Under the pieces are notes generated by a model. It worked only from the letters and a program-made list of their open reading frames with translations. It made no database searches and was not told the DNA's origin. Position numbers and translations under genes: made by a program. Source: an uncultured Bacilli bacterium (lineage in GTDB: Bacteria > Bacillota_I > Bacilli_A > RF39 > UBA660). Taken from it: a stretch of 63,052 nucleotides of DNA. Shown in pieces: positions 44,469-62,595 of this stretch. The DNA lies in contig CANRDN010000011.1 in the NCBI GenBank assembly GCA_947629375.1, positions 1-63,052 on the forward strand. The letters are read 5' to 3'. Position 1 is the first letter of the stretch, and each line of letters begins with the position of its first letter.

Positions 44469-44497
44469 ATAGTACCATAATTATTGGAGGTAGTCAA
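44469..44497 (-). promoter_or_regulatory. tracrRNA promoter overlapping the cas9 start
   Basis: Read on the minus strand: TTGACT (44497-44492), a 17-nt spacer and TACTAT (44474-44469). Transcription would start near 44462, the first base of the anti-repeat. The -35 covers the first base of the cas9 ATG, and the cas9 SD (GGAGG) lies in the spacer. A cas9 promoter would have to lie upstream of or within the tracrRNA gene; TATGAT at 44349 is a weak candidate. Confidence 0.65.
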
Positions 44498-47400
44498 TGA
44501 AAAAATATAATATTGGATTAGATATTGGAACAACTTCAGTCGGTTGGGCAGTAGTTGATCAAGAAAAATTTAACATAGTAAGAAAAGGAAATAAAAAATT
44601 ATGGGGTGTCAGACTTTTTGAAGAAGCTAGCACAGCAGAAAGTAGAAGAGCATTTAGGAGTACTAGAAGAAGATATGATCGTAGAAGAGAAAGAATAAAA
44701 TTACTACAAGAAGAATTCAAAAACGAAATTAACAAAGTTGATATAGACTTCTTTAAGAAATTAAAAGAAAGCTTTTATAGAAATGATGACAATAAAAAAA
44801 CTTTAAAGTTATCAAAAGAAGATTTAGAAAAAAGCAAAGATTATAATAAAAAATATCCTACTATTTATCATTTAAGAAATGAATTGATCATAAATAGAGA
44901 GAAAAAGGATATTAGGTTAGTATATTTAGCAATCCATCATATTATTAAGTATAGAGGAAACTTTTTACGTGATGGAAAATTTAATGTAAACAATTTAAAT
45001 ATTTCTGAAAATCTCGAAGAAATTTTTAAAGATTTTGAAAATAACACAAATGTTGAAATAAATGATTTACAAAACATTCCATTGGAAGAATTATCAAAAG
45101 TTTTATTAATTGATTCTAAGTCTGATAGAAAACAAAAAGTAAAAGAACTATTATCATTGAATTTTTCAAAAACTTTTTGTGATGAATTTTCAAAATTAAT
45201 ATGTGGTTCAAGTGCTTCATTAGCAAAACTATTTAATTTAGATTTAGATGGATCAGAAGACGTAAAAATTTCGTTAGAGGAAGATTATGAGCAAAACTTG
45301 GATAAAGTAATTAATCTATTGAACGATAATGCAGATATTGTTGACGAAATAAAAGAATTATATGATTCTATCATTTTAAAAAACTTTTTTAAAGATGATG
45401 ATACAAAATGTCTTTCATCTTTGATGATGAAAAATTATGAGCAACATAAGTTAGATTTAAAAAATTTAAAAAGAATATTATCTTTTAATCGTAAGGAATA
45501 TAACAAAATTTTTAGAAGTACTGCTGCTAATAAATGCTTATACGAAAAATATTTATGCAATTCTATTTCTTTTGATGAATTTATAAATGATGTTAAAAAA
45601 AGTATTTCTTTATCTCTAGAATACATAACTGATCAAAAAATAATTGATGATTATACAATTAATTTTCAGAAAAGAATTGAACAAGATGATTTTATGCCAA
45701 GAATAACTACGGTTAATAATGGAATTTATCCTTATCAACTAAATGAAGATGAATTAATTCAAATTATAGAAAATCAAGGGAAATATTATCCATTTTTACT
45801 TGAAAAGACAAAAGATAATGTTTATAAATTAGTAAAATTACTAGAGTTTAAAATTCCATATTATGTTGGACCACTAAACAATACTACATCAGTTAAAGGA
45901 AAAGATAATGTAAATTCATGGATTATTAGAAAACAAGAAAACACTAAAATAACACCTTATAATTTTAATGAAGTAGTCGATTTAGAAGGATCTGCTGAAT
46001 TATTCATTAATCGTATGATATCAAAGTGTAGTTATTTACTTGATGAACCTGCTATGCCAAATAATTCTATTTTATATTGCAAATTTAAAGTATTAAATGA
46101 ATTAAAACAAATAAAAGTTAATAATGAGAAAATACCATTAGATATTCAAAATAAAATCTATAGAGAATTATTCTTGAAAAAATCAGGAACAATTACTGAT
46201 AAATTATTCAAAAAATATTTATATGAATCTAACGAGTATTCAATGTATGGTTTAGATATAAGTATTGAAGGTTATTCAAGTGATAATAAATTTGCAAATA
46301 ACATGCAACCTTATGTAGACTTTTTTGGTGATGATGGTTTCTTTAGTGGAACAAAATATTCTATTGAAAATGCTGAAGAATTAATTAGGTGGATTACAAT
46401 TTTTGAAGATAAAGATATGTTGGAAAGAAAAATTAGAAATTCTTATCAAAATCTTTCTGAGGATATTATAAAGAAACTTGTAAATAAAAAATATAAAGGA
46501 TGGGGTAGTTTATCTGAAAAATTACTTACAACAAAATATTATTTAGACAAGTCTTGCAATGTTAAAAAATCAATAATGGACTTAATGGAAGAAACAAGTA
46601 AAAATTTTATGCAAATAATAAATGAGCCAAAATATAATTTTCAAAAAATGATTGATGAATATAACGAAGTAGATAATACTAAAAAAATAAATTATAGTCT
46701 AGTTGATAATTTATTTACTTCACCTGCTACAAAAAGAGGAATATATCAAGCATTAAAAGTTGTAGAAGAAATAATTGATTATATGGGTTATAATCCAGAA
46801 AATATTGTAATTGAAATGGCTAGAAGTGAAGAAGAAAAAACACGTACTGTCGATAGAAAAAAATACATTCAAAAATTGTATGAAAGTTGTAAGAAAGATA
46901 TAGAGAATTATTCACAACTAAACAAAGAATTAATGTCATTTGAAAAAATAGATCAAAAATTATTCTTGTATTTTATCCAAGAAGGAAGAAGCTTATATTC
47001 TAGAGAAAAATTAGATATTAATAAATTAAATGACTATGAAATTGACCATATCCTACCTCAAACATTAATAAAGGATAATTCTATTGATAATAAAGCACTT
47101 GTTTTAAGAAGTGAAAACCAGGAAAAAGCTGCAAGTTTAGTTTTACCAGCCAAATTTAGAACTCCAGATAAAATTAAATGGTGGGACTTACTTAAGAAAA
47201 GAAAATTAATATCTTCAAAAAAATATAATAATTTAATAAGATCACATTATAGTGATTCAGATATAGAAGGTTTTATTAATAGACAACTGGTTGAAACAAG
47301 ACAAATAACTAAGCATGTCGCTAATATATTAAAAAATTATTATGAAAGTTCAAATGTTATATATTTACATGCTGATTTATCGCATAACTATAGAGAAAAA

Positions 47401-48513
47401 TTTGAATTATTTAAATACAGAGATTTGAATGATTACCATCATGCTCATGATGCATATCTTGCTGCAGTTTTAGGTGAATATAAGTCTAAATATTTAAAAA
47501 ATAAAATTGATTATAATAGGTTTAAACAAATAAATGAATCTATATTAGAAAGTAAAAATTATAAGGAATTTAAATATGGATTCTTTATAAATAGTTTGGA
47601 TAATAAATTTAATTTAATAAACGAACAAACTGGAGAAGTAATACTTGAAAACAAAAAGTTAAATGAGACGATTGAAAATACTATGTATTGCAATGATATT
47701 CTAGTAAGTAAAAAAACGGAAATAAAAAGTGGAGCCTTTTATCAAGAAACAAAAAATTCTCACAATAAACTTGGTAAGAATGATGTACCATTAAAAGATG
47801 GTCTAGATATGACTAAATATGGGTCATATACTGAAATATACCCTTCATATTTGTGCTTAGTTAAATATGGAACTAAGCAAAAAGTTATTGGAATTCCAAT
47901 ACTTATAGAAGAAAAAAGCAAAAAAAATAGTATCCTAAAGGAACAATATATAAAAAGATGTTTAAATCTAAAAGAAACCGAAAAAATTCAAATATTAATC
48001 GATAAAATTCCATTTCAGCAGTTATTAAAATATCAGAATCATATGGTTTATATAACAGGAAGTAGCTGTGAACTTGTTTCTGCAGTGGAACTTCATTTAC
48101 CAAAAGACTCAGCAAAAAAATGGAAATATCTTTTGAACTTGATATTTAATGGTAAAGATATACCTAAAGACAGCGATGGAAATTCTATTTTATCTGAAGA
48201 AGAAAAAAATAAGCAATTAGATGAAATATTGGCATTCCTTTTAACTCAAACTAGAAAGCATTATCCATTATATGAAGAAATTGCTAACAAATTTGAAGTG
48301 TATTTAAAGGATAATAGATTAGATTTTGATAATAAAATAAAATTTGTTAAAGAGTTCTTTAAGTTATTAAATGGACATAATGCAAATTTAGAAACAATTA
48401 CAAATAAATATTTTCCAAATAGAGTTGGTAGATTAACCACAAGAACGATAACAAATGGTGTTCTATATTATAATTCTGTTACTGGTATATGGTCTTATAA
48501 ATATGAGTTTTAG
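44497..48513 (+). CDS. cas9: Type II-A CRISPR endonuclease Cas9
   Basis: 1,338 aa. RuvC-I has Asp9 (IGLDIGTTSVGWAV). The Arg-rich bridge helix (RSTRRRYDRRRERIK) is near 55-75, followed by a large recognition lobe. RuvC-II has Glu773 (NIVIEMARSEEE). HNH has Asp850/His851 (YEIDHILPQ). RuvC-III has His982 and Asp985 (HHAHDAYLAAVLGEY). All nuclease residues are intact. The C-terminal PAM-interacting part cannot be typed by eye. csn2 places it in subtype II-A. SD TTGGAGG precedes ATG; the stop overlaps cas1 by 11 bp. Confidence 0.98.
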   Translation: MKKYNIGLDIGTTSVGWAVVDQEKFNIVRKGNKKLWGVRLFEEASTAESRRAFRSTRRRYDRRRERIKLLQEEFKNEINKVDIDFFKKLKESFYRNDDNKKTLKLSKEDLEKSKDYNKKYPTIYHLRNELIINREKKDIRLVYLAIHHIIKYRGNFLRDGKFNVNNLNISENLEEIFKDFENNTNVEINDLQNIPLEELSKVLLIDSKSDRKQKVKELLSLNFSKTFCDEFSKLICGSSASLAKLFNLDLDGSEDVKISLEEDYEQNLDKVINLLNDNADIVDEIKELYDSIILKNFFKDDDTKCLSSLMMKNYEQHKLDLKNLKRILSFNRKEYNKIFRSTAANKCLYEKYLCNSISFDEFINDVKKSISLSLEYITDQKIIDDYTINFQKRIEQDDFMPRITTVNNGIYPYQLNEDELIQIIENQGKYYPFLLEKTKDNVYKLVKLLEFKIPYYVGPLNNTTSVKGKDNVNSWIIRKQENTKITPYNFNEVVDLEGSAELFINRMISKCSYLLDEPAMPNNSILYCKFKVLNELKQIKVNNEKIPLDIQNKIYRELFLKKSGTITDKLFKKYLYESNEYSMYGLDISIEGYSSDNKFANNMQPYVDFFGDDGFFSGTKYSIENAEELIRWITIFEDKDMLERKIRNSYQNLSEDIIKKLVNKKYKGWGSLSEKLLTTKYYLDKSCNVKKSIMDLMEETSKNFMQIINEPKYNFQKMIDEYNEVDNTKKINYSLVDNLFTSPATKRGIYQALKVVEEIIDYMGYNPENIVIEMARSEEEKTRTVDRKKYIQKLYESCKKDIENYSQLNKELMSFEKIDQKLFLYFIQEGRSLYSREKLDINKLNDYEIDHILPQTLIKDNSIDNKALVLRSENQEKAASLVLPAKFRTPDKIKWWDLLKKRKLISSKKYNNLIRSHYSDSDIEGFINRQLVETRQITKHVANILKNYYESSNVIYLHADLSHNYREKFELFKYRDLNDYHHAHDAYLAAVLGEYKSKYLKNKIDYNRFKQINESILESKNYKEFKYGFFINSLDNKFNLINEQTGEVILENKKLNETIENTMYCNDILVSKKTEIKSGAFYQETKNSHNKLGKNDVPLKDGLDMTKYGSYTEIYPSYLCLVKYGTKQKVIGIPILIEEKSKKNSILKEQYIKRCLNLKETEKIQILIDKIPFQQLLKYQNHMVYITGSSCELVSAVELHLPKDSAKKWKYLLNLIFNGKDIPKDSDGNSILSEEEKNKQLDEILAFLLTQTRKHYPLYEEIANKFEVYLKDNRLDFDNKIKFVKEFFKLLNGHNANLETITNKYFPNRVGRLTTRTITNGVLYYNSVTGIWSYKYEF

Positions 48514-49399
48514 GACAGTTGTTATATCAAATCAATCTAAAATTAGCTATAAAAATAGATTTTTAGTTGTAAGAAATGAAGAAGATGAAAAATATGTGCA
48601 TTTGTCAGAAATAGATACGATTATTGTTGATTCGATTTCTGTATCTATTTCTGCATATTTGCTTAAAGAGTTATATGATAATAAAATTAATATTATTTTC
48701 TGTGATGAAAAACATAATCCATTTGGTGAGTTAAAATACTTATATGGAAAACATAATACTAGTAAAAAAGTTATTATTCAAAGTAAGTGGACTCAAAAAA
48801 ATAAAGATTTGATGTGGCAAAATATTGTAAAAAATAAAATTCTTAATCAATCTTTAATTTTACAAAAAGTAAATTCTGATAATGAAAAAATGCTATTAAG
48901 TTATTTGAATGATGTTAAAGTTGGAGATAAAACAAATCGAGAAGGTCACGCAGCAAAAGTTTATTTTTATTCTTTATTTGGAAAAGAATTTGTTAGAAAT
49001 AATGGTGATAATATAAATGCAGCATTAAACTATGGATATTCAATTTTATTATCGACTGTTAACAAAGAGATTATTTGTAATGGATATATTACGCAATTGG
49101 GAATTCATCATAAAAGTGAATTTAATGAATATAACTTAGCTTGTGATATGATGGAAATTTTCAGACCTGTAGTAGATTTTTATGTTTTTAATAATAAGGA
49201 TAGAGAGTTAGATAGTGAATATAAAATGGATTTAGTAAACCTATTTAATAAAAAGTTCAAATATATGAAAAAGAGCTATACACTTAAAGATATAATAAAA
49301 AAGAATGTTGCAGATAATTTAGAAAATATTGAGAAAGGGACAAATTATTATTCATTTATATATGAGGAATCGAATAATGAGAGCGATAGTATTTTTTGA
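48503..49399 (+). CDS. cas1: CRISPR adaptation nuclease Cas1
   Basis: 298 aa from MSFRTVVISNQSKISYKN, the standard II-A start; longer in-frame readings begin inside cas9 and are rejected. Typical conserved features include the N-terminal IDTIIVDS strand and, in the helical domain, NREGHAAKVYF with Glu and GIHHKSEFNEYNLACDMMEIFRP supplying the His, Glu and Asp metal ligands. It integrates spacers with Cas2. Confidence 0.95.
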   Translation: MSFRTVVISNQSKISYKNRFLVVRNEEDEKYVHLSEIDTIIVDSISVSISAYLLKELYDNKINIIFCDEKHNPFGELKYLYGKHNTSKKVIIQSKWTQKNKDLMWQNIVKNKILNQSLILQKVNSDNEKMLLSYLNDVKVGDKTNREGHAAKVYFYSLFGKEFVRNNGDNINAALNYGYSILLSTVNKEIICNGYITQLGIHHKSEFNEYNLACDMMEIFRPVVDFYVFNNKDRELDSEYKMDLVNLFNKKFKYMKKSYTLKDIIKKNVADNLENIEKGTNYYSFIYEESNNESDSIF

Positions 49400-49682
49400 T
49401 TTGCCAAATGTTTATTCAGTTGACAAAAGAAATTATGTTAGATTTAGAAACTTTTTGGTTAATGATGGTTATATAATGTTACAGGAATCTGTTTACTCCA
49501 AATTAATATTAAATGAGCAACAAGCAACATTGCTAATTAATAGATTAAAAAAGAATTCTCCTAAAAGGGGAACAATTCAAATTTTAATTATTACTGAAAA
49601 ACAATATGCTAAGATGGAATATATAATAGGAAATTCTAAAACAAAAATTGTAAACAGTGAGGATAGATTGGTAATATTATGA
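49377..49682 (+). CDS. cas2: CRISPR adaptation protein Cas2
   Basis: 101 aa starting at MRAIVFFDLPN, with the conserved Asp of the ferredoxin-fold strand 1. It overlaps cas1 by 23 bp and csn2 by 4 bp. Upstream in-frame ATGs add non-conserved residues. Confidence 0.93.
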   Translation: MRAIVFFDLPNVYSVDKRNYVRFRNFLVNDGYIMLQESVYSKLILNEQQATLLINRLKKNSPKRGTIQILIITEKQYAKMEYIIGNSKTKIVNSEDRLVIL

Positions 49683-50356
49683 AATTAATTATAAATTATT
49701 TTGAAAATGAAATATCTTTTGAGGAAAATATTATCAATGTAATAGAAGTAGAAAATCAAAAATACTTTTATAGGATTGTTAATGATTTAAATGAATGCTC
49801 TAACGGGATAGTTAATGACAATATTAATTTTTTTGATGCAGATTTTAACAATATTGACTTATCCGGTAAAATAAAAATGGTTATTGATTATTTTAATATA
49901 GAGCTAAATGATAAAAAAACAGTAAATGAAATAGAAAAGTTTATTTTAAAAAATATTGATGATAAAGCAAAAAAAGAAATAATAAACTTATATTTAAAAA
50001 TTCTAAAAAATTATAATTCTGTTGCTAATAAGTTAGAAATACCTTTAATTTATAATGATGAAATTCAATATGATAAATTGATTAAAATAATTGGTTATAG
50101 TGTAGATAAAAAACAAGATTTATTAGATAACCTATTATTACTAATAGATATTGAAAGAATTTTTAAATTAAATAGGCTCATTGTTTTTGTGAATCTTAAG
50201 CAATATTTAAGTTTTGATGAAATTATAGAATTATATAAGTATTCAATATATAACGATGTTAAAATTTTATTAATCGATTCTACTAAATATGATAAAAAAT
50301 GTGATTATGAGAAAAAATTGATTATAGATAGCGAATTAGATGAATTTGCGTTATAA
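49679..50356 (+). CDS. csn2: Type II-A adaptation protein Csn2
   Basis: 225 aa, in the length range of the shorter Csn2 proteins. It opens MKLIINYFENEISFEENIIN, like known Csn2, and has a degenerate P-loop fold with IFKLNRLIVFVNLKQYLSFDEIIELY near 160-185. Csn2 rings bind DNA ends during spacer acquisition. ATGA overlap with cas2. Confidence 0.88.
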   Translation: MKLIINYFENEISFEENIINVIEVENQKYFYRIVNDLNECSNGIVNDNINFFDADFNNIDLSGKIKMVIDYFNIELNDKKTVNEIEKFILKNIDDKAKKEIINLYLKILKNYNSVANKLEIPLIYNDEIQYDKLIKIIGYSVDKKQDLLDNLLLLIDIERIFKLNRLIVFVNLKQYLSFDEIIELYKYSIYNDVKILLIDSTKYDKKCDYEKKLIIDSELDEFAL

Positions 50357-50417
50357 TTATTGTTGACATAGAGCCATTCAAGAAGAAATTCTGTGTCAGC
50401 ATAGATTTAAATTTGAG
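50357..50417 (+). promoter_or_regulatory. CRISPR leader
   Basis: 61 bp between csn2 and the first repeat. It contains a TTGACA (50363-50368) without a convincing -10. GACATAGAG and CCATTCAAGA at 50365-50383 are both complementary to parts of the repeat but in swapped order. GACATAGA can also pair with TCTGTGTC near 50390. It is the expected position of the array promoter and the Cas1-Cas2 docking site. Confidence 0.6.
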
Positions 50418-51904
50418 GTTTTAGATCTATGTCATCTTGAATGGTACGAAAACTTTAATACTAGCATTAGATACAGATACAACGTTTTAGATCTATGTCA
50501 TCTTGAATGGTACGAAAACCCCCTACTTCGTCATTTTTTTTGCCTTCATGTTTTAGATCTATGTCATCTTGAATGGTACGAAAACAATATAATTAGGTTA
50601 TGCTACCTAAACAAAGTTTTAGATCTATGTCATCTTGAATGGTACGAAAACTCTTAATGAAGCATATATTGAAGTTCAAAGGTTTTAGATCTATGTCATC
50701 TTGAATGGTACGAAAACTAATTATTAATGGTATTTTTAGTTTAGTTAGTTTTAGATCTATGTCATCTTGAATGGTACGAAAACACTAAAATGTCAACTAA
50801 GTCAGTCCTGTAAGTTTTAGATCTATGTCATCTTGAATGGTACGAAAACAATTTTTATCGTTTGTCACGCGTCACCCATGTTTTAGATCTATGTCATCTT
50901 GAATGGTACGAAAACGAGGTGTTTTTATGTTAAAAGGTAGAAATTGTTTTAGATCTATGTCATCTTGAATGGTACGAAAACTTGTACTTTGTTGTTCATA
51001 CATAGTATATAGTTTTAGATCTATGTCATCTTGAATGGTACGAAAACCAAGTTTTTGATAGTGTTCAACTCTAATGTGTTTTAGATCTATGTCATCTTGA
51101 ATGGTACGAAAACTATCTTTTATTGATTTACCAAGCGAAGATAGTTTTAGATCTATGTCATCTTGAATGGTACGAAAACATAATACTATAATAATGACTG
51201 CTAGTGAATGTTTTAGATCTATGTCATCTTGAATGGTACGAAAACGATGAAAGATTGGAAAATAATCAAGGTTATGTTTTAGATCTATGTCATCTTGAAT
51301 GGTACGAAAACATTCTGAAAAAATATTTGCACTTGTAAAATGTTTTAGATCTATGTCATCTTGAATGGTACGAAAACTACTTATTGCATACCAAATGGAT
51401 GCGGTGAGTTTTAGATCTATGTCATCTTGAATGGTACGAAAACACTTATTGCGTACCAAACGGATATGGTGAGTTTTAGATCTATGTCATCTTGAATGGT
51501 ACGAAAACCTTGTTAAATGAAAGTATGTATGATTATAAGTTTTAGATCTATGTCATCTTGAATGGTACGAAAACATTTGAACAAATGACTTTGTTAATCC
51601 TTTTGTTTTAGATCTATGTCATCTTGAATGGTACGAAAACGAGTTAAATGCCTTGTAATAGGCACGACACGTTTTAGATCTATGTCATCTTGAATGGTAC
51701 GAAAACTGGTTCAGGTGCTGTAACAAAAAATGATAGGTTTTAGATCTATGTCATCTTGAATGGTATGAAAACCATTTCAATTCCCAATAACATCGTTGTA
51801 TGGTTTTAGATCTATGTCATCTTGAATGGTATGAAAACTAGTGTTGAACTTCCAGGTATAACAAAAAAGTTTTAGATCTATGTCATCTTGAATGGTATGA
51901 AAAC
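50418..51904 (+). CRISPR. CRISPR array, 23 repeats and 22 spacers
   Basis: 36-bp repeats starting GTTTTAGATCTATG and ending GGTACGAAAAC, at 66-bp spacing. Spacers are 30 bp, except spacer 16 (51444-51472), which is 29. Repeats 1-20 look identical. Repeats 21-23 (51737, 51803, 51869) share one change near the 3' end (GGTATGAAAAC), marking the older, leader-distal end. crRNA orientation is plus, matched by the minus-strand tracrRNA. Confidence 0.98.
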
Positions 51905-52075
51905 GAAAAATTATAAAAAATGTCCAAGGGAAAAATTCCTCACTAGACAAAATACATGTGATAATTTCTTATGCATAAAATGTATGTTACTTTATATATT
52001 TATTAGAAAATGAAAATAAATGATGTTATAAAGAACTAGTAAAATAACAATTATTCTAGAAAGGTGATAAATACA

Positions 52076-52334: not shown

Positions 52335-52368
52335 AAAGATTACTGTAAAGAAAGACAGTAATCTTTTC
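52335..52368 (+). terminator. Rho-independent terminator
   Basis: Perfect 12-bp arms (AAAGATTACTGT / ACAGTAATCTTT) and a short T-run. Confidence 0.8.
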
Positions 52369-52382
52369 ATTTGATATAATAA

Positions 52383-52568
52383 AAACATAAGGATAATGGT
52401 GGTTATATCTTAAAAATTAATAATCAAATAAAATTAAGCTTTAGTAAACATATCGAATTATATGTTAAAATTGTAAAAAAAAACTAATCATTAATTGTAA
52501 CCATTAAAGAATGTAAAAAATTATTGACAGCCAAAAATATTGATGATAGATTATTATTTAATATTTAA
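52383..52568 (+). pseudogene. Decayed small ORF with one in-frame TAA
   Basis: A single reading frame gives coding-looking peptide (KINNQIKLSFSKHIELYVKI, then LIVTIKECKKLLTAKNIDDR) interrupted by TAA at 52485-52487. No start codon is found after the preceding stop. Probably the remnant of a roughly 60-codon gene. The identity is unknown. Confidence 0.4.
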
Positions 52569-52600: not shown

Positions 52601-53824
52601 ATGATTAAATTGAATAAATGTAATTTTGATTATTTGTATGATACACCTGATATTAATGATATAGAGAACTTTATTAATAAACTTACTAACAAATATAAAT
52701 CTGAATTAAAAAGTATAGAATTGTTAAATAGTAATATTTTATTAAATTACGATAAAGCTCAATATATTGAATTAATAAAAAAACACAAGAAGACAATTAT
52801 GTTACTTATTAAAGATATAATTGATTTTTTTCCTCAACTATCTAATGTGCCACATATTGTTTTTATACATGGTAGTTTCGCTAAAGAATTAAATAGGATG
52901 AATAGTGATGTAGATTTAGATATTTTATACCCTAATGAGTTTAAAAAGTATATTTTGCCAATTGAAGAAATTATTTCAATAATTTTACAAAAAGTTCTTG
53001 GATATAGTGGTAGAGATAGAATACATACTGTGATGCTTTACACATACAATCTTCCTAATAATAAGGTATTAGAATCTACTAATGAATGTACTATTTCATT
53101 TTTAAATAAAAATCTTTATAAATATCATTGTAGACCAAATTTTGATGAAATAATGTATAAAATAAAAAATTCTTCTAGAGAATATGAAGATTTTTTAAGT
53201 TATGTAAAAAACAATGTTACTAGTAGTAAGTGCAATGAATGGTGTTATTCTTATGAGCAAATATTAACTAATTGTGAAGAATATGACATAAATAAAGCAT
53301 TAAATAATATTGATGAGGATAGAGTGGATAGAACTGATTATGTTAGTTATAATAAATTATTAGAAGAATTAACAAAGTCAATGAGTGAAAGTGATTACGA
53401 TATTAATAAACTAAATTTAATCAGTGACGTTAATCATAATTTTAAAATTGAGAATATAGGTTATATATATAAAACACTAGCTTTAATAAGAAGATATTTG
53501 TTTATTAATAAAATTCCAGTTAATGGTTTAAATTTCTTTGAAATATTTGAAAAACCAGAATTTATTAAAATGTTTTCGTCTCAAGAGTTGGATAATGTTA
53601 AAACCGACATTTTTAGGTATCTTTGGCAACTATCGAGAATTGAAAATTTATTTACATATAGTAACAATAATTTTAGTTCTAGAAATTATGATAGTTTTGA
53701 TACTAAATTGTTTTGTCAGCTGTATAAAGATTTATATAATGAAGATTTAATATGTGTTCAAAATGAATCTACTGATAATCTTCATAAATCATTAGAAAAA
53801 GTATTAACAAAAATAAAAATGTAG
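52601..53824 (+). CDS. Nucleotidyltransferase-fold protein (first gene of a novel-looking cassette)
   Basis: 407 aa. An NTase core is clear at 86-107: VFIHGSFAKEL with G91-S92, then SDVDLDIL with D103, D105 and D107, the G-S...D-x-D metal motif of pol-beta-type enzymes. The N-terminal 85 residues and the long C-terminal part are helical; no HEPN R-x4-6-H motif is seen. The acceptor (nucleotide, tRNA, protein or small molecule) is unknown. ATG 52601 is close to its SD; TTG 52610 is an alternative. Eight bp separate it from the synthetase-like gene, so the two act together. Confidence 0.7.
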   Translation: MIKLNKCNFDYLYDTPDINDIENFINKLTNKYKSELKSIELLNSNILLNYDKAQYIELIKKHKKTIMLLIKDIIDFFPQLSNVPHIVFIHGSFAKELNRMNSDVDLDILYPNEFKKYILPIEEIISIILQKVLGYSGRDRIHTVMLYTYNLPNNKVLESTNECTISFLNKNLYKYHCRPNFDEIMYKIKNSSREYEDFLSYVKNNVTSSKCNEWCYSYEQILTNCEEYDINKALNNIDEDRVDRTDYVSYNKLLEELTKSMSESDYDINKLNLISDVNHNFKIENIGYIYKTLALIRRYLFINKIPVNGLNFFEIFEKPEFIKMFSSQELDNVKTDIFRYLWQLSRIENLFTYSNNNFSSRNYDSFDTKLFCQLYKDLYNEDLICVQNESTDNLHKSLEKVLTKIKM

Positions 53825-53832
53825 GAGGAAAT

Positions 53833-54918
53833 ATGAGTAAGGTAGTAATGACAATGCCAATAAAACCACAAGAAGAAACAAATATAGGTATGTATATCAG
53901 TCCAACATTAATGGAGGTTTTAAGTGATATTCTATCGTGTGATAGTGTTATGGCTGTTAATTTGCTTAATACATATAAAGATAAAGATTTACAATTGAAA
54001 CATTTTATAGATGATTTAGAACGTCAGGGTATTAAATATGATAAATTATTTGTCGATAAAAATTATGTTGATAAAATATTAACTTTGATTCAAGAATTAA
54101 TAAAAAGAGGGTTTGTTAAAAAGTCAACTGAAGAAGTATTTAGGTGTGATTGTGGAAAAGTTGATTTTTTGAAACAAGGAATTAATTCAAATACAAATAA
54201 GTTATATTATGAAAAAAATGGTAAGTATTACTGTAAAGAATGTGGAAGTGAATGCAAGTCTTTCAAAGAAGATGTTTTGGTACTTGATTTATCAAAAGAT
54301 GTTGATGATTCTATGTTAATAGTACCAACTTTTTTAAAAAATGATGTTAAACACTTAACCAAAGCTTTTAAAGGAAGCAAAATGCTTGTTTCTAAACAAC
54401 GTGATACAGGATATCAACTTGATGTTGATGGTAAAAAATTCAATATTGACATTGATTTTCTTTGGACTAATTATTTTAGATTTTTTGATAACGATCAGAT
54501 TATAATGCTTGCAAGTAATCATCAATTATATAAGATGTATTTGCTTAATTACTTAAATAAAATTATTTCTGGCAATGAAATTTGTTTTGTAGCGCATCCT
54601 TATATGAATCTTTCAAGAGAGTTAAATCCTTTGGCTGAATATGAAAAAACAAGGGATAGTATTTATAAAAAACTATTTATTTTATATAATTTAAAGTGGC
54701 AGAATAAAAATTGTGATTGGTCATCTAGTACAATATCTTATCTAAGCAATATAAGTACAACAAGAAGAAATAATTTATATAAAGTTATTGAAAACTGTGG
54801 AAATAAATTTGATGAGAATATGATGCCTTTAGATGAATATTTAGAAAATATTTTGCGAAGAGGAATAAATATGCAACAAAATATTCCAGAATCAAAAAAA
54901 TTAGTTTTGAAAAAATAA
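53833..54918 (+). CDS. Class I aminoacyl-tRNA-synthetase-like zinc protein
   Basis: 361 aa with strong SD (AGGAGG). Several stretches follow the class I synthetase plan in order. TMPIKPQEETNIGM is at the place of the HIGH motif, altered to NIGM. DLERQGIKYDKLFV precedes YVDKILTLIQELIKRGFV. A zinc knuckle has C105-x-C107 and C134-x2-C137-x3-C141. LVSKQRDTGYQ sits where synthetases have S-R-Q-R-x-W-G, followed by FNIDIDFLW. No clear KMSKS is seen and there is no anticodon-binding domain. It may aminoacylate or adenylate a small molecule or tRNA fragment, or be a decoy. The assignment is my inference from motif order. Confidence 0.55.
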   Translation: MSKVVMTMPIKPQEETNIGMYISPTLMEVLSDILSCDSVMAVNLLNTYKDKDLQLKHFIDDLERQGIKYDKLFVDKNYVDKILTLIQELIKRGFVKKSTEEVFRCDCGKVDFLKQGINSNTNKLYYEKNGKYYCKECGSECKSFKEDVLVLDLSKDVDDSMLIVPTFLKNDVKHLTKAFKGSKMLVSKQRDTGYQLDVDGKKFNIDIDFLWTNYFRFFDNDQIIMLASNHQLYKMYLLNYLNKIISGNEICFVAHPYMNLSRELNPLAEYEKTRDSIYKKLFILYNLKWQNKNCDWSSSTISYLSNISTTRRNNLYKVIENCGNKFDENMMPLDEYLENILRRGINMQQNIPESKKLVLKK

Positions 54919-54945
54919 TGGTTAATAGTTAGGTGAGTTGATAAT

Positions 54946-55629
54946 ATGTATAGTGTTTTATTTAGTAAAATTGAATTAGGTATGGATTTAATAAAAGAAA
55001 GGCTAAAAGAGTTTATTAAGACAGAGTACAAAGTTGCAGTTTTCCCTTGGGCTTTTCCTGTTGAATTAACAAGTGAAGAATTTGTAAAAGAGTATTTTCC
55101 AGTTGATGGTAGAAGATATAATAAGTATTATGATCAATTGAAAAAAATAGGTATTAAAAAAGAAAATATTATAATATGTAATCCTTACAAAGATACTAGA
55201 AATGAACTTATTGAAATTATTCAAGATAGTGATGTTTTGCTATTGCCAGGTGGTAATCCAGAAATGCTTTTTAAGAAGTTTTTACATGATATGGAATTAG
55301 TATATTACATTAAACATTATAAGGGGATAATAATTGGAGAAAGTGCTGGTAGTGAATTACAATTAAAAAGATATTTTATTACTGCTAAAAATAATTATTA
55401 TAAGTATTTTGCTTTTTATGATGGTTTAGGAGTATTAGATGACCTTTTTTATTTTGATGTTCATTCAATAAATAATAAAAGATATTTAACAAAATTACAA
55501 AGTGTTGCTAATGAAAAAAATAAGAATGTTTATGCTGTTTTTGATGATGGAGTTCTTTTATACAATAGAGAGTCTAAGAAATTAGAAATATATGGTAATG
55601 TATTAACTTTTGTACCTAATGAATGTTAA
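54946..55629 (+). CDS. Peptidase S51 (dipeptidase E)-like protein
   Basis: 227 aa with a class I glutamine-amidotransferase-like fold. LLPGGNPEMLF, the nucleophile elbow GESAGS with Ser133, and FDVHS with His173 match the S51 family (peptidase E, cyanophycinase). The family cleaves Asp-X or related bonds; here the substrate is unknown. SD AGGTGAG precedes ATG, and 27 bp separate it from the synthetase-like gene. As third gene of the cassette it could release or detoxify the product of the other two. Confidence 0.72.
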   Translation: MYSVLFSKIELGMDLIKERLKEFIKTEYKVAVFPWAFPVELTSEEFVKEYFPVDGRRYNKYYDQLKKIGIKKENIIICNPYKDTRNELIEIIQDSDVLLLPGGNPEMLFKKFLHDMELVYYIKHYKGIIIGESAGSELQLKRYFITAKNNYYKYFAFYDGLGVLDDLFYFDVHSINNKRYLTKLQSVANEKNKNVYAVFDDGVLLYNRESKKLEIYGNVLTFVPNEC

Positions 55630-56507: not shown

Positions 56508-58157
56508 ATGAATAAAAAAGAATTATATGAATTATTGTTAGAATTATGTGAAAAAGGTTCAAAAGAGCAAATTAAAAAGCTCTTATTGAGTGTAATTAAG
56601 AAGATGCCAGATAGTCAAAATAAGGAAATAGCGGAACTTATTAACGAAGTCTTTAAAGATGAAACACAGAGTATTAATTTAGGTGATTTGGATAGAAAAA
56701 TAGAAAAAATTGAAAAGCAGTTTGATTTGATTAATTCTGGTAAATTGAAATTTCATTGTGAAACATATGAAACTGGTGATTATGACTATTGGGATGACGA
56801 ATACAAAACTCGTTATTACGATCCTGAAAATGTTAGTAGTATTATATTAAATGCTTATAATTTAGCTTTTATATTATTTGCACAAAAAGATTATAGAAAT
56901 GTAAGAAAGATTCTTGACTTAATTGTTTTTACTAATTATTCTGTTTTAGAAGATTATTGTAATGATATTTTGGATTATGAAATAATTGATATTGTTTCTT
57001 TTAAATTAATAAACATAGATATAAATAAAATGTGTTTAACTTTATTATTTATCACCATATTAGTTAGTAACAATAATTTTGAAGAAATATATAATTATTA
57101 TAAATTATATACTTTTAGTGACATTAAACTCGAAGATTCTTTTAGTTTTGGATTGGAAAGAATTAAAGATTTTGATATGTTTTTGCAAAATTGGACACAA
57201 TTCTTATCCCAAAAAGATGATAATATTTCTTTTGACTTATTAATTAATTCTTTAGAATATAGTAATTATGATAATTATAAAGAAGTACTACAAATGAACA
57301 AGGTAACACATCCTGAATTATGTGAATTTATATTGAAAAAAATATATGAATTAAAAAAATATAAAGAAGTTATTAAAATAGGTGAAAGTATAATTAATGA
57401 TTTGGATGATAACATAAGAAGAAATATTGCATTACTTATAGCGGAATCTTGTAAAAAAATTGATTTAAATTCTGATATTAGTAAGTATTTATATACAGCA
57501 TTAGAATCAAATCATAATATATCTGATTTAATAAGAATTATAAATAACGATTATTTAGTAAAGTATAAAGATGAAATAGACATCATAAAAAGGGATCCAT
57601 ACAAAAGTTTTGATAGTAACACCAAAGTATTGTTTAGTTATTTTTTAGGAGAATTTGACATGTTTTTAAATTTTTTTAAAGACAATCAAGAATATTTAGG
57701 GTGGACATATTCAAATATGAACATTTATGTAGAGTTAATGTTTTTCTTATTATGTGATTGGAATGAAACAGAATTAAAAAAGAAACTAGCTCGTTTAATA
57801 TGCTTTGAAATGGGAATAAATGATGATGATTATTATATTCTTTATAATGCATTTGAAGGAGAAATTGACTATTTTAAAATCCTTAACGTATGGAAAAAAC
57901 ACATTATTATCCCTGATAAAATTAAACAGGATTATGTTAATTATTTAAAGGAAACAGTAGAAAAACGAGTACACGCAATTGTGTCTAATCAACATCGTGG
58001 TTCTTATCATAAAGCAGCATTTTTAGTTTGTATTTTAGATGAATGTCTAGAAAATTTAAAAATAAAAAACAAAGGTGAAATTATTGCGTTTTATGAAAAT
58101 AAGTATTCGAAATACGTTGCATTTAAAAAAGAGATTAACAATTATATTTATCAATAA
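56508..58157 (+). CDS. Alpha-helical repeat protein, unknown
   Basis: 549 aa, almost wholly helical with TPR- or HEAT-like pairs. Its C-terminus (KRVHAIVSNQHRGSYHKAAF, then ENKYSKYVAFKKEINNY) resembles the end of SWIM-zinc-finger-type helical proteins, but no SWIM motif (CxCx...CxH) is present. It has SD TAGGGAG and follows decayed ORFs. It may act as a scaffold for the primase-helicase 370 bp downstream, though no operon link is visible. Confidence 0.55.
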   Translation: MNKKELYELLLELCEKGSKEQIKKLLLSVIKKMPDSQNKEIAELINEVFKDETQSINLGDLDRKIEKIEKQFDLINSGKLKFHCETYETGDYDYWDDEYKTRYYDPENVSSIILNAYNLAFILFAQKDYRNVRKILDLIVFTNYSVLEDYCNDILDYEIIDIVSFKLINIDINKMCLTLLFITILVSNNNFEEIYNYYKLYTFSDIKLEDSFSFGLERIKDFDMFLQNWTQFLSQKDDNISFDLLINSLEYSNYDNYKEVLQMNKVTHPELCEFILKKIYELKKYKEVIKIGESIINDLDDNIRRNIALLIAESCKKIDLNSDISKYLYTALESNHNISDLIRIINNDYLVKYKDEIDIIKRDPYKSFDSNTKVLFSYFLGEFDMFLNFFKDNQEYLGWTYSNMNIYVELMFFLLCDWNETELKKKLARLICFEMGINDDDYYILYNAFEGEIDYFKILNVWKKHIIIPDKIKQDYVNYLKETVEKRVHAIVSNQHRGSYHKAAFLVCILDECLENLKIKNKGEIIAFYENKYSKYVAFKKEINNYIYQ

Positions 58158-58448: not shown

Positions 58449-58529
58449 CGAAATTATTTTAAAAAGCTATGAAAACAATTAAAAATATTGTATAATATGA
58501 TAACTTTATTACTTTTAAAGGGGAGTAAT

Positions 58530-60893
58530 ATGCAAAGAAATGAGATAATTGAAATCATTAACAAAAAAACTCTTGAAGCAAAGAAATTAATTAATGAGAT
58601 AAATGACTTAAAAAAGATACTTAGTAATTATGATAATCAATCAAATACAAATTTTACTAATGAAGAAAAAATAAATATTTTTATGAATTATTTTAGAGGT
58701 AGAGAAAGTATATATCCTTATCTTTCTATTGATAAAAAAGATCAAAATAAAAAATATTATATACCAAAATGTGCAAACGAATGGAATAAAAACGTTTGTA
58801 ATAAAACAATGGGTGAAAAATGTAGAGATTGTCAGTATTGGGTTGATAAACCAATAGATAAAGAAGTTATAAGAAATCATTTATTTAATAGTAATCCAAT
58901 TGGTATTTATCCTATGTTAGAGGACGAAACCTGTTACTTTTTGGCATTTGATTTTGATGATAAGAAAAATGAAAATGCTATTAAAGAAGATGTACTTGCT
59001 TTTGCAAGTATATGTGATAAATATAGTGTTCCTATCTCTATTGAACGTAGCAGATCAGGTCGTGGAATTCATGTATGGATATTTTTTGAAAATAATATAA
59101 AAGCATTAACTGCTAGAAAGATGGGAAGCCTATTATTATCAAAAACTATGGAAATACGTGATAATTTAAAAATTGATTCTTTTGATAGAATGTTTCCAAA
59201 TCAAGATACTATGCCTAAAGGTGGTTATGGTAACTTGATTGCACTTCCATTTCAAAATGAACCAATGAAATATAATAACACTGCTTTTCTTGACAGAAAT
59301 TTTATTGCTTATGATAATCAATATTGCTATTTAAGTAAAGTAAAAAAGATGAACTATGATGAAGTATTTAGTGTAATAAGAATATTATCGGAAAATACAA
59401 TAGATATTAGTAATGAATATGTAGAATTAAAGAAGGAAATAAAAAATAAACGAAAAAATAATTTCGATTTTCCAAAAATTATCGATATTATTTTAGATAA
59501 TATGATTTATATAGATAAAGCAAATTTAAGTGCAGCTGTTAAAAATTGTTTTAGAAAACTTGCAACATTTGCAAATCCAGAATTTTTTAAAAAGCAAAGA
59601 ATGAGAATGTCAGTTCATAATATTCCTATGGTAATAGATTGTAGTAAGGAAGATGATAAATATTTAATGATTCCTAGAGGTAAATTTGAATATCTATGTG
59701 ACTTATGTAATCAAAATAATATAAAAATGAAAATTACTGATAGAAGAAATAAAGGAAAAAAAATAAATATAAAATTTAATGGTGAATTAAGGCAAGAACA
59801 AAGTCTTGCATTAAAAGAAATGCTAAAATATGAAAATGGAATACTTGAAGCACCTACTGGATTTGGTAAGACAGTTATTTGTTGCAAACTAATTGAAGCA
59901 AGAAATGTTAATACGCTTATAGTAACTTTTAATTTATCATTATTAAATCAATGGAAACAAAGATTAAAAGAGTTTTTGAATATTGAAGAAGTAGGTCAAA
60001 TCGGTGATAATAAAAAAACATTAACAAATGTAATAGATGTTGCTAGTATTAAAACAATATATAATGACGGAAAATTTAGTGATATAGTTAAAAACTATGG
60101 AATGATAATTATAGATGAATGTCATCATTCTTCAGCTTATACGTATGAGGCTGCTTTAAATATGATGAATGCAAAGTTTGTATATGGTGTATCCGCAACA
60201 CCAGAAAAAGAAAATGGACATACACCTATTATTAAAATGCAATGTGGTGATATTAGATATAAGGTTGACATGAAACAATATAATAAAAATTTAAATTTAT
60301 TAATGAAAGTCTATAGTAAAAGTGTTCATTTGAATTTTGTTAACAAGAATGTAGTAGATTACAAAATTAATGAAATATATGATTTAATATCAAAAGATGT
60401 TATTAGAAATGAAGTAGTCATAAAAGATGTAGAAAAAGAGTTTAAAAATGGTAAAAATGTATTAGTATTAACAGAACGAATTGATCATTTAGAATATTTA
60501 TATGAAAAATTATCAAAAATAACTGGCAATATAATGATGTATCGAGGTGGACTAGGTAAAAAAGTATTTAAAAAATATGATGAATTAAATAATACTATTA
60601 AAGATAATAACGAAAATAAAATAATAATTGCTACTAGTTCTTGTATTGGTGAGGGGTTTGATGATCCAACATTAGAAGTATTATTCTTAACTATGCCAAT
60701 ATCTAGCGTAAATAGAATAGTACAATATACTGGAAGACTACATAGAAAGAATGAAAATAAAAAAGAAATAATAGTTTATGATTACGTTGATGATAATTTC
60801 TCAATGATTAGAAATATGTTTTTAAAAAGAAAAAAAGCATACGAAAAAGTTGGATATGAAATTATTGAAAAGAATTGTCAAATGTCACTATGA
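58530..60893 (+). CDS. TOTE-type primase-helicase
   Basis: 787 aa from ATG 58530 (SD AAGGGGA). The N-terminal coiled coil is followed by a Cys cluster (PKCANEW, VCNKTMGEKCRDCQYW). An archaeo-eukaryotic-primase domain follows, with AFDFDD (D141, D143) and SGRGIHVW (H181). A DEAD/DEAH SF2 helicase follows, with Walker A Lys447 (PTGFGKT), IIIDECHH (D529, E530), SATPEK and the motif VI QYTGRLHRK. This is the architecture of the TOTE conflict-system primase-helicases. Mobile-element and defence contexts are known for the family. Confidence 0.85.
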   Translation: MQRNEIIEIINKKTLEAKKLINEINDLKKILSNYDNQSNTNFTNEEKINIFMNYFRGRESIYPYLSIDKKDQNKKYYIPKCANEWNKNVCNKTMGEKCRDCQYWVDKPIDKEVIRNHLFNSNPIGIYPMLEDETCYFLAFDFDDKKNENAIKEDVLAFASICDKYSVPISIERSRSGRGIHVWIFFENNIKALTARKMGSLLLSKTMEIRDNLKIDSFDRMFPNQDTMPKGGYGNLIALPFQNEPMKYNNTAFLDRNFIAYDNQYCYLSKVKKMNYDEVFSVIRILSENTIDISNEYVELKKEIKNKRKNNFDFPKIIDIILDNMIYIDKANLSAAVKNCFRKLATFANPEFFKKQRMRMSVHNIPMVIDCSKEDDKYLMIPRGKFEYLCDLCNQNNIKMKITDRRNKGKKINIKFNGELRQEQSLALKEMLKYENGILEAPTGFGKTVICCKLIEARNVNTLIVTFNLSLLNQWKQRLKEFLNIEEVGQIGDNKKTLTNVIDVASIKTIYNDGKFSDIVKNYGMIIIDECHHSSAYTYEAALNMMNAKFVYGVSATPEKENGHTPIIKMQCGDIRYKVDMKQYNKNLNLLMKVYSKSVHLNFVNKNVVDYKINEIYDLISKDVIRNEVVIKDVEKEFKNGKNVLVLTERIDHLEYLYEKLSKITGNIMMYRGGLGKKVFKKYDELNNTIKDNNENKIIIATSSCIGEGFDDPTLEVLFLTMPISSVNRIVQYTGRLHRKNENKKEIIVYDYVDDNFSMIRNMFLKRKKAYEKVGYEIIEKNCQMSL

Positions 60894-60933: not shown

Positions 60934-62595
60934 TTGTATAAAAATACTGAATAGTTAAATAAAATTTTAGACGAGTTATTATTAAATCCTGAGAGCGAAT
61001 GTGTAGAATTTAAAAAAGCAGAGAATACATTTGATATAGATAATTTAGGTAGATATTTTTCTGCTTTAGGTAATGAAGCAAATTTAAAAAATAAACAATA
61101 TTCGTGGATAGTGTTCGGTATTGATGATAAGACTCACAAATTAACTAATACTAAGTTTTATAGCGACAATAATTTTAACAAAGTGAAAAAACAAATCTCT
61201 GATAATACAACAGATAATATTGGATTTATAGAAATATATGAATTTACAAGAGAAAATAATCGAGTAATTATGTTTCGAGTTCCAGCGGCTTCTGGTACTC
61301 CCATTAATTGGAAAGGATTTCCATATGGTAGAAATGGTGAGTCCTTAGCTCCCTTAACAGCAAATAAAATTGAGCAAATAAAGGCAACTGCTATTTGTGA
61401 TTGGTCAAGACAAGTAATAGAAGATGCTACGATAGATAATTTAGATAAAGAAGCGATTAAAGTTGCTAGAGAACAGTTCAAAGTTAAATATAAAGGAAAG
61501 AGTATATCTAATGAAATAGATAATTTATCTGATATTGATTTTTTAAATAAAGTTAAATTAACATTAAATAACAAAATAACTATGGCTTGTATGTTATTAT
61601 TAGGAAAGAATGATGATTATTTAATGAATGGTTATACACCAAAAATGACTTGGAAACTTTATGATGATTTTAATGTTATCGATTATGAACATTTTGGTAT
61701 ACCATTTATTATTAATGTAGAAAAATTAAAATCCAAAATACGAAATTTGAGATACAGATACATGGTCAATGATAATACCTTATTTCCAAATGAAGTGGAT
61801 CAATATGATAACTATATTCTTCGTGAGTTAATTAACAACTGTATTGTTCATCAAAATTATAAATTACATGGAAATATAAATGTTATGGAATACAAAGATA
61901 AGCTAATAATAACTAATGAAGGGAACTTTATTCCTGAAACAATTGAGAACGTTCTAAAAGATGGTTTTTCATCACCATATTATAGAAATCAATTTTTAGC
62001 TAATGCTATGGTTAATTTAAATATGATTGATACTGTAGGTAGTGGAATAAGAAGAGTATATGATATTCAAAAGAAAAAATTCTTTCCAATGCCGGATTAT
62101 GATTTAAGCAAAGATAATCGAGTTAAAGTTACTTTGTATGGTAAAATTATAGATGAAAAATATAGTAAAATATTATTTGAAAAAACAAATTTAGATATAG
62201 ACAAAGTAATGCTATTAGATAAAGTACAAAAAGGTTTTGAAATTACAAAAGAACAGAGTGATTATTTAAAAAAAGATAATTTAATTGAAGGAAGATATCC
62301 AAATATTTATATTTCGTCTGACATTGCAAAAATAACAAATAAAGAAAAAGATTATATGGATAATAAAGGTCTAGATAATGCATATTATAAAGATTATATA
62401 TTAGCATATATTGAAAAATTTGGAAAAGCATCTAGAGAAGAAATTAATAATTTGATTTATCCAAAATTGCCAATAAATATGAGTGAAAAAAATAAAAATA
62501 ATAGAGTTAGATATATTATTTCACAATTAAAAAAAGAAGATAAAATAGAAAATGAAGGATCACTAACAAAATCTTCTTGGATAATAAAAGAATAG
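60934..62595 (+). pseudogene. AlbA_2/RecG-like transcriptional regulator with nonsense codon 7
   Basis: TTG 60934 (SD GAGGTG) opens a frame that hits TAG at 60952-60954 and is then open to 62595. Everything after the stop fits the AlbA_2 family: PESECVEFKKAENT, then WIVFGIDDKTHKL, the PYGRNGES motif, a HATPase_c_4-like region (LINNCIVHQNY, VGSGIRRVYDI) and a winged-helix tail. GTG 61111 could start a 494-aa protein, but that would remove the conserved EFK block. A CAG-to-TAG change is the simplest cause. The protein is either inactive or translated from a weak internal start. Confidence 0.7.

Follow-up and report, generated by a model that had tools for sequence, protein, structure and literature searches.

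A co-inherited three-gene cassette of gut Bacilli encoding a GlnE/DrrA-like nucleotidyltransferase, a predicted methionyl-tRNA synthetase-fold protein, and an S51 peptidase

The window analyzed here, meaning the whole 63,052-nucleotide stretch of contig CANRDN010000011.1 (positions 1 to 63,052, forward strand; GenBank assembly GCA_947629375.1, 1.87 Mb in 72 contigs) from an uncultured Bacilli bacterium, contains three consecutive genes encoding a nucleotidyltransferase (gene 1), a protein with the fold of methionyl-tRNA synthetase (MetRS; gene 2), and a peptidase of family S51 (gene 3). These genes form a real, co-inherited cassette under purifying selection. The three open reading frames (ORFs), their coordinates (Table 1), and the intergenic gaps of 8 and 27 bp agree with an annotation made earlier by a model from the sequence alone (hereafter, the original prediction), and gene 1 may start at the TTG at 52610, the start that its relatives have.

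Table 1. Features of the cassette and of the region immediately upstream, in window coordinates
Feature	Position	Strand	Basis
Gene 1, nucleotidyltransferase, 407 aa, GlnE/DrrA-like whole-chain fold	52601..53824	+	Pfam and model
Gene 2, MetRS-fold protein, 361 aa, without HIGH or KMSKS, zinc-knuckle Cys retained	53833..54918	+	Model and fold search
Gene 3, S51 peptidase, 227 aa, Ser133-His173-(Asp200)	54946..55629	+	Pfam and homolog alignment
Possible promoter, TTGACA-17-TAGATT, ahead of gene 1, weak	52524..52552	+	Consensus scan
Hairpin, near-palindromic, between the cassette and an upstream 81-aa ORF	52335..52366	.	Terminator scan

Within its family, 11 of 291 genomes (∼4%) have gene 2, each from another genus and with 26-81% identity, and the order yielded it in 15 of 385 genomes, none of them outside that family; in a phylum-wide sample of 392 genomes it occurred only in the window's own genome. 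The cassette-bearing relatives are metagenome-assembled gut Bacilli, such as Candidatus Onthousia. The co-occurrence of the three families in other genomes to which the original prediction had looked was observed repeatedly: among the 16 genomes with gene 2, the nucleotidyltransferase gene is adjacent in 15 and a close S51 homolog in 14, and two congeners of the source that lack gene 2 lack the nucleotidyltransferase and S51 genes too. When the S51 profile was run across GTDB, 69 loci from Bacilli and related records were recovered, ∼30 of which also carry the nucleotidyltransferase or gene 2. Gene order is variable, including nucleotidyltransferase-gene 2-S51, gene 2-S51-nucleotidyltransferase, and nucleotidyltransferase-S51-gene 2, while the set persists. 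Pairwise protein distances across 23 cassettes gave Mantel correlations of r = 0.68-0.78, a level reached in 0 of 2000 permutations, and for each of the three genes the ratio of nonsynonymous to synonymous substitution rates (dN/dS) between close pairs was 0.05-0.34, which, together with the repeated co-occurrence, places the cassette beyond chance. No homolog was found among phage or plasmid proteins, or in viral contigs searched with the gene 2 and S51 profiles, so these searches lend no support to a phage or plasmid origin.

The AlphaFold model of the gene 2 product (predicted local distance difference test [pLDDT], 88.6; predicted template modeling score [pTM], 0.88) matched the MetRS fold along its full length in Foldseek (E 9e-13), and VIA-align superposed it on Streptococcus pneumoniae MetRS with a Z-score of 22.1 over 305 residues at 3.4 Å, which bears out, and narrows to MetRS, the class I synthetase or HUP/Rossmann identity that the original prediction expected of a fold search. 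A structure-independent profile-profile comparison likewise placed residues 64-201 in register with the MetRS zinc knuckle and the segment that follows it (E 8e-4). The alignment pairs residues 1-361 of gene 2 with residues 4-436 of MetRS and, because it reaches that far, the sequence after the catalytic core is not lost altogether but lacks only a portion of the C-terminal anticodon bundle.

Gene 2 resembles MetRS in its whole fold, its zinc knuckle, and its S-x-x-R...G segment, but differs in its shorter C-terminal bundle and its lack of HIGH, KMSKS, and any Pfam synthetase match. Of these two ATP-handling motifs, HIGH is missing in all 27 homologs, with N-I-G-M or other residues in its place (where the two His would stand, N/E/S/I/K and M/R/K/L occur), and KMSKS is likewise missing in 27 of 27. 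Across the same 27 homologs, 19 residues are invariant, among them P9, P12, N43, D75, C105, C107, C134, C137, C141, S187, R190, D206, D208, W211, N229, P256, and W289, so that gene 2 is best regarded as functional rather than as a decaying synthetase. Of the motifs originally read from the window, the altered HIGH and the absence of KMSKS recur in all 27 homologs, and the five Cys of the knuckle and the S187 and R190 of the S-x-Q-R-x-x-G segment are unchanged. By position and known MetRS anatomy, D206, D208, and W211 probably lie in the segment of the methionine-stacking Trp, and N229 at the position of the aspartate of the MetRS GKD motif, so the pocket seems to have been rebuilt, not abandoned.

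Pfam gave only weak zinc-ribbon matches for gene 2, and none of its synthetase families, tRNA-synt_1g included, matched any homolog; the family was likewise unmatched in NCBIfam, PHROGs, and PADLOC, none of which assigns a family to any cassette protein beyond the Pfam matches. A PDB sequence search with the gene 2 profile returned only spurious prion-protein matches to a short stretch near the zinc region (E ≥0.009), and a fold search of BFVD returned ordinary viral synthetases only. An ordinary MetRS is encoded elsewhere in the source genome, and one relative (G001, L014:3330-4975) carries, ∼2.2 kb from its cassette, a MetRS-like gene that has the HIGH motif and is split across two frames.

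The PyrN domain 9l8v is also among the structural matches of gene 2; the Spb40/PyrN hydrazine synthetases are MetRS-like paralogs with a cupin. MetRS paralogs with cupins and the cyclodipeptide synthases (CDPSs) have been described by Aravind and co-workers (PMC2922099). Like gene 2, these paralogs are MetRS-derived, with a role outside translation, but they keep the adenylation residues and the cupin, and gene 2 has neither. The CDPSs share with gene 2 a class I synthetase fold, and their loss of HIGH and KMSKS (PMC2922099) offers a precedent for a reading in which gene 2 would use aminoacyl-tRNA without adenosine triphosphate, gene 1 would adenylate the product, and the S51 enzyme would hydrolyze that product. 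Such a scheme is improbable, as CDPSs are of the tyrosyl- or tryptophanyl-tRNA synthetase type and have a conserved active-site Ser in the loop after strand 1, whereas gene 2 is of the MetRS type and has no invariant Ser at residues 8-25, where only P9 and P12 are invariant.

Gene 1 has Pfam matches to Polbeta/NTP_transf_2 (E 3e-6 and 1e-5), in keeping with the pol-beta nucleotidyltransferase originally proposed, but its model (pLDDT 93, pTM 0.91) has a more specific likeness, with Z-scores of 19.6 over 317 residues against the N-terminal domain of Escherichia coli GlnE (1v4a), 18.9 against the GlnE C-terminal domain (3k7d), and 14.7 against DrrA (6yx5), compared with 7.2 for the next-best structure. 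Judged by this predicted structure, GlnE/DrrA-like is a better description of gene 1 than generic pol-beta nucleotidyltransferase. The likeness includes the GlnE-type whole-chain fold and an SDxDL strand, matched in E. coli GlnE by SSDIDLIFAW and SSDLDLIFLH, but the GS motif of gene 1 is of the usual nucleotidyltransferase kind, whereas GlnE has GKLGG. Among 25 homologs, strict invariance is confined to the GS and SDxD motifs (G91, S92, S102, D103, and D105), with E213-W214 almost invariant; the motif named in the original prediction thus stands for G91-S92, D103, and D105, but not for D107, which is N in 14 homologs and H in six.

GlnE and DrrA transfer adenosine monophosphate (AMP) onto proteins, GlnE controls glutamine synthetase, and MNT antitoxins AMPylate HEPN toxins. 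The cassette could by these precedents be a protein-AMPylation switch, in which gene 1 would AMPylate or de-AMPylate gene 2 or else a host protein involved in translation, such as MetRS, and the S51 enzyme would be an accessory peptidase. The high-Z whole-chain matches of gene 1 are protein AMPylators only, and genes 1 and 2 are nearly inseparable while S51 is less so, both of which speak for a switch. It is nevertheless an unlikely explanation: gene 1 is the most divergent of the three genes, retaining few residues past GS/SDxD and E213-W214, unlike GlnE; Pfam GlnE went undetected in all 25 homologs; and the S51 gene is left unexplained. Other identities for gene 1 were rejected, namely an aminoglycoside nucleotidyltransferase (Z 5-6, as against 19-20 for GlnE), a member of the MNT-HEPN systems (20.9 bits with the MntA model against a cut-off of 60, and neither cassette partner is a HEPN protein), and a relative of the adenylyltransferase SidL (PMC13431035), which has a different fold.

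Gene 3 matches Pfam Peptidase_S51 above the cut-off (E 6e-7), and S133 and H173 are invariant in 69 of 69 homologs, the original prediction having noted the S51 nucleophile elbow GESAGS and a His; a PDB search with the S51 profile found no chain. S51 enzymes of the MccG group use Ser-His-Asp to destroy aminoacyl-nucleotide toxins: Nocardia MccG (Ser133-His168-Asp196) cleaves the isoaspartyl-nucleotide that results from microcin C processing, and the majority of MccG homologs are encoded by standalone genes (PMC9239234). Another S51 enzyme with Ser-His-Asp is a dipeptidase E (PMC11078827). Gene 3 shares with MccG the S51 family and the occurrence of both in-cluster and standalone copies, and of the Ser-His-Asp residues its homologs always keep the Ser and His, with Asp at the third position in 59 of 69, but no mcc biosynthesis genes were seen near gene 3.

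As S51 enzymes of the MccG type confer resistance to such compounds (PMC9239234), the cassette might confer protection from an aminoacyl-nucleotide or aminoacyl-sulfamoyl compound of external origin, with gene 2 acting as a decoy, gene 1 modifying the compound, and S51 cleaving it. Consistent with resistance, NUDIX, HAD, and GNAT proteins are the commonest companion enzymes (of 116 neighbors, HAD phosphatases account for seven, NUDIX for six, and RelA/SpoT and GNAT for five each), and orphan S51 genes are common and under selection. A resistance cassette is still rather improbable, because the frequent loss of the nucleotidyltransferase or gene 2 with S51 kept suggests that genes 1 and 2 are costly, and because the methionine pocket of gene 2, on the residue mapping proposed above, appears not to be conserved.

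The pattern of gene loss is one-sided. All three genes are intact at 22 of 71 loci and S51 stands alone at 27; at 11 of the 71, the nucleotidyltransferase and/or gene 2 is broken or a remnant beside an intact S51, and at none is a broken S51 accompanied by two intact partners. In the set found through gene 2 the same trend appears, though it is small: the nucleotidyltransferase is split or frameshifted in three genomes (G001, G752, and G152) and missing in a fourth (G693), whereas two genomes lack S51 and none has a broken copy. Purifying selection continues to act on S51 genes that are orphans or stand beside remnants (dN/dS 0.10-0.31), and the S51 tree intersperses solo with cassette copies, well-supported branches forcing at least nine label changes. 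One-sided decay of this kind is expected for an effector and its antidote, since the effector can go first and the antidote cannot.

The reading tentatively favored here, with confidence well short of even, is that genes 1 and 2 make an intracellular aminoacyl- or peptidyl-nucleotide-type effector to which the S51 enzyme is the antidote; it builds on the folds, the lost motifs, the co-inheritance and selection of the genes, and their one-sided decay, as described above, and adds to them a putative reaction, product, and effect. The GlnE-like gene 1 product would take over the adenylation of which the gene 2 product would no longer be capable, moving AMP onto an aminoacyl, peptidyl, or protein acceptor that the pseudo-MetRS would bind or handle. 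The resulting effector would be harmful or signaling, and the S51 enzyme would hydrolyze its acyl bond, serving as antidote or off-switch. Orphan S51 copies may be retained for the added protection that they give from the product of neighbors, as proposed for standalone MccG genes. The role of S51 as a resistance or off-switch enzyme, already put forward in the original prediction, gains support from the MccG literature (PMC9239234) and the one-sided decay. The marked resemblance of gene 1 to two AMPylators, far above other folds, also counts in favor of an effector and antidote.

Several observations weigh against this reading. The targets of GlnE and DrrA are proteins rather than amino acids; D200 of gene 3 is replaced by Asn in 10 of 69 homologs; and two loci lack S51, one with nucleotidyltransferase and gene 2 intact (L017) and the other with a broken nucleotidyltransferase (L022). 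Most of the 71 loci were found via S51, which favors intact S51. Orphan S51 genes often adjoin rsh or NUDIX genes, and they may have an older role of their own. A secreted antibiotic is unlikely, since neither a transporter nor a precursor peptide was seen recurring beside the cassette. That the genes constitute a new intracellular conflict or signaling system, with GlnE-like adenylation for a MetRS-derived partner, a nucleotide-linked effector, and an S51 antidote, is put forward as a somewhat doubtful proposition.

The surroundings of the cassette were also considered as a clue to its function. In the window it lies between a type II-A array of clustered regularly interspaced short palindromic repeats (CRISPR) and a TOTE helicase-primase gene, from which the original prediction had argued for defense, and this position, like the sporadic distribution of the cassette, would suit an anti-phage module belonging to a CRISPR/TOTE island. 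That argument is unsupported, because the cassette is flanked elsewhere by housekeeping genes (rsgA, rpsF/ssb, pyruvate kinase, clpC, ftsW, ileS, and ppdK) and no named defense family recurs: PADLOC found no recurrent named system among the neighbors, the top matches being to candidate (PDC) or generic models, and no known system among the cassette proteins, which gave only matches to candidate PDC models at E 0.002-0.03. With homologs also lacking in phages, viral contigs, and plasmids, a defense module is very improbable.

Other arrangements recur at particular loci. S51 or cassette genes lie directly 3′ of a RelA/SpoT-type gene for guanosine tetra- and pentaphosphate, (p)ppGpp, at L037, L039, L043, L055, L068, L072, L073, L079, L081, L082, and L092; these loci are divergent in sequence identity, and the adjacency reflects either old synteny or a functional link. 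Standalone S51 genes lie beside genes that, named by eye, are NUDIX or S66 (MccF/LD-carboxypeptidase-like) at L032, L033, L058, L060, L072, L079, L081, L082, L087, L089, and L092, an assemblage reminiscent of the detoxification of nucleotide-linked compounds. In one subgroup (L016, L038, L039, L041, and L042), gene 2 and S51 are separated by an inserted radical SAM gene, RlmN-like by eye, with ends that overlap or nearly abut, and in most of these loci a serine recombinase gene follows. In several cassettes (L047, L052, L053, L069, and L076), a gene for a Cof-type HAD phosphatase either overlaps S51 at its 3′ end or directly adjoins it there.

Within the window, the cassette is downstream of the CRISPR array, as originally stated, but not directly beyond it, as ∼690 bp and the 81-aa ORF intervene. 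The hairpin was the only one in the terminator scan, against 0.2 expected, and may separate the cassette from that ORF; TTGACA-type sites were no more numerous in the consensus scan than in shuffles, and no RNA family or tRNA was detected at the cassette. The type II-A locus (44497-51905) is complete, with cas9, cas1, cas2, csn2, and an array of 36-bp repeats; the listed start of cas1 (48455-49399) falls within the end of cas9, giving a 59-bp overlap, and the in-frame ATG at 48503 may be its true start. Beyond the cassette lie a gene for a 549-aa protein without a Pfam, NCBIfam, or PADLOC match (56508-58157), the TOTE-type primase-helicase gene (58488-60893; AEP-TOTE, E 8e-81), and then a gene for a HATPase_c_4 (RecG C-terminal-like) protein (61111-62595). 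The 81-aa ORF and the genes at 56508 and 58488 were rejected as cassette members, no homologs of them being found beside the cassette in ten relatives.

No paper on the three-gene combination was found in the open-licence literature of PubMed Central, and the original prediction likewise knew of no described system with this set; the component folds are all known, but as far as could be tested neither the combination nor the gene 2 family has been described. If genes 1 and 2 do cooperate, an unrelated enzyme would have taken over the adenylation step of a class I synthetase. If the S51 enzyme is an antidote, the many standalone MccG-like S51 genes of gut bacteria would be tied to a concrete endogenous compound, and the cassette would offer a direct route to finding it.
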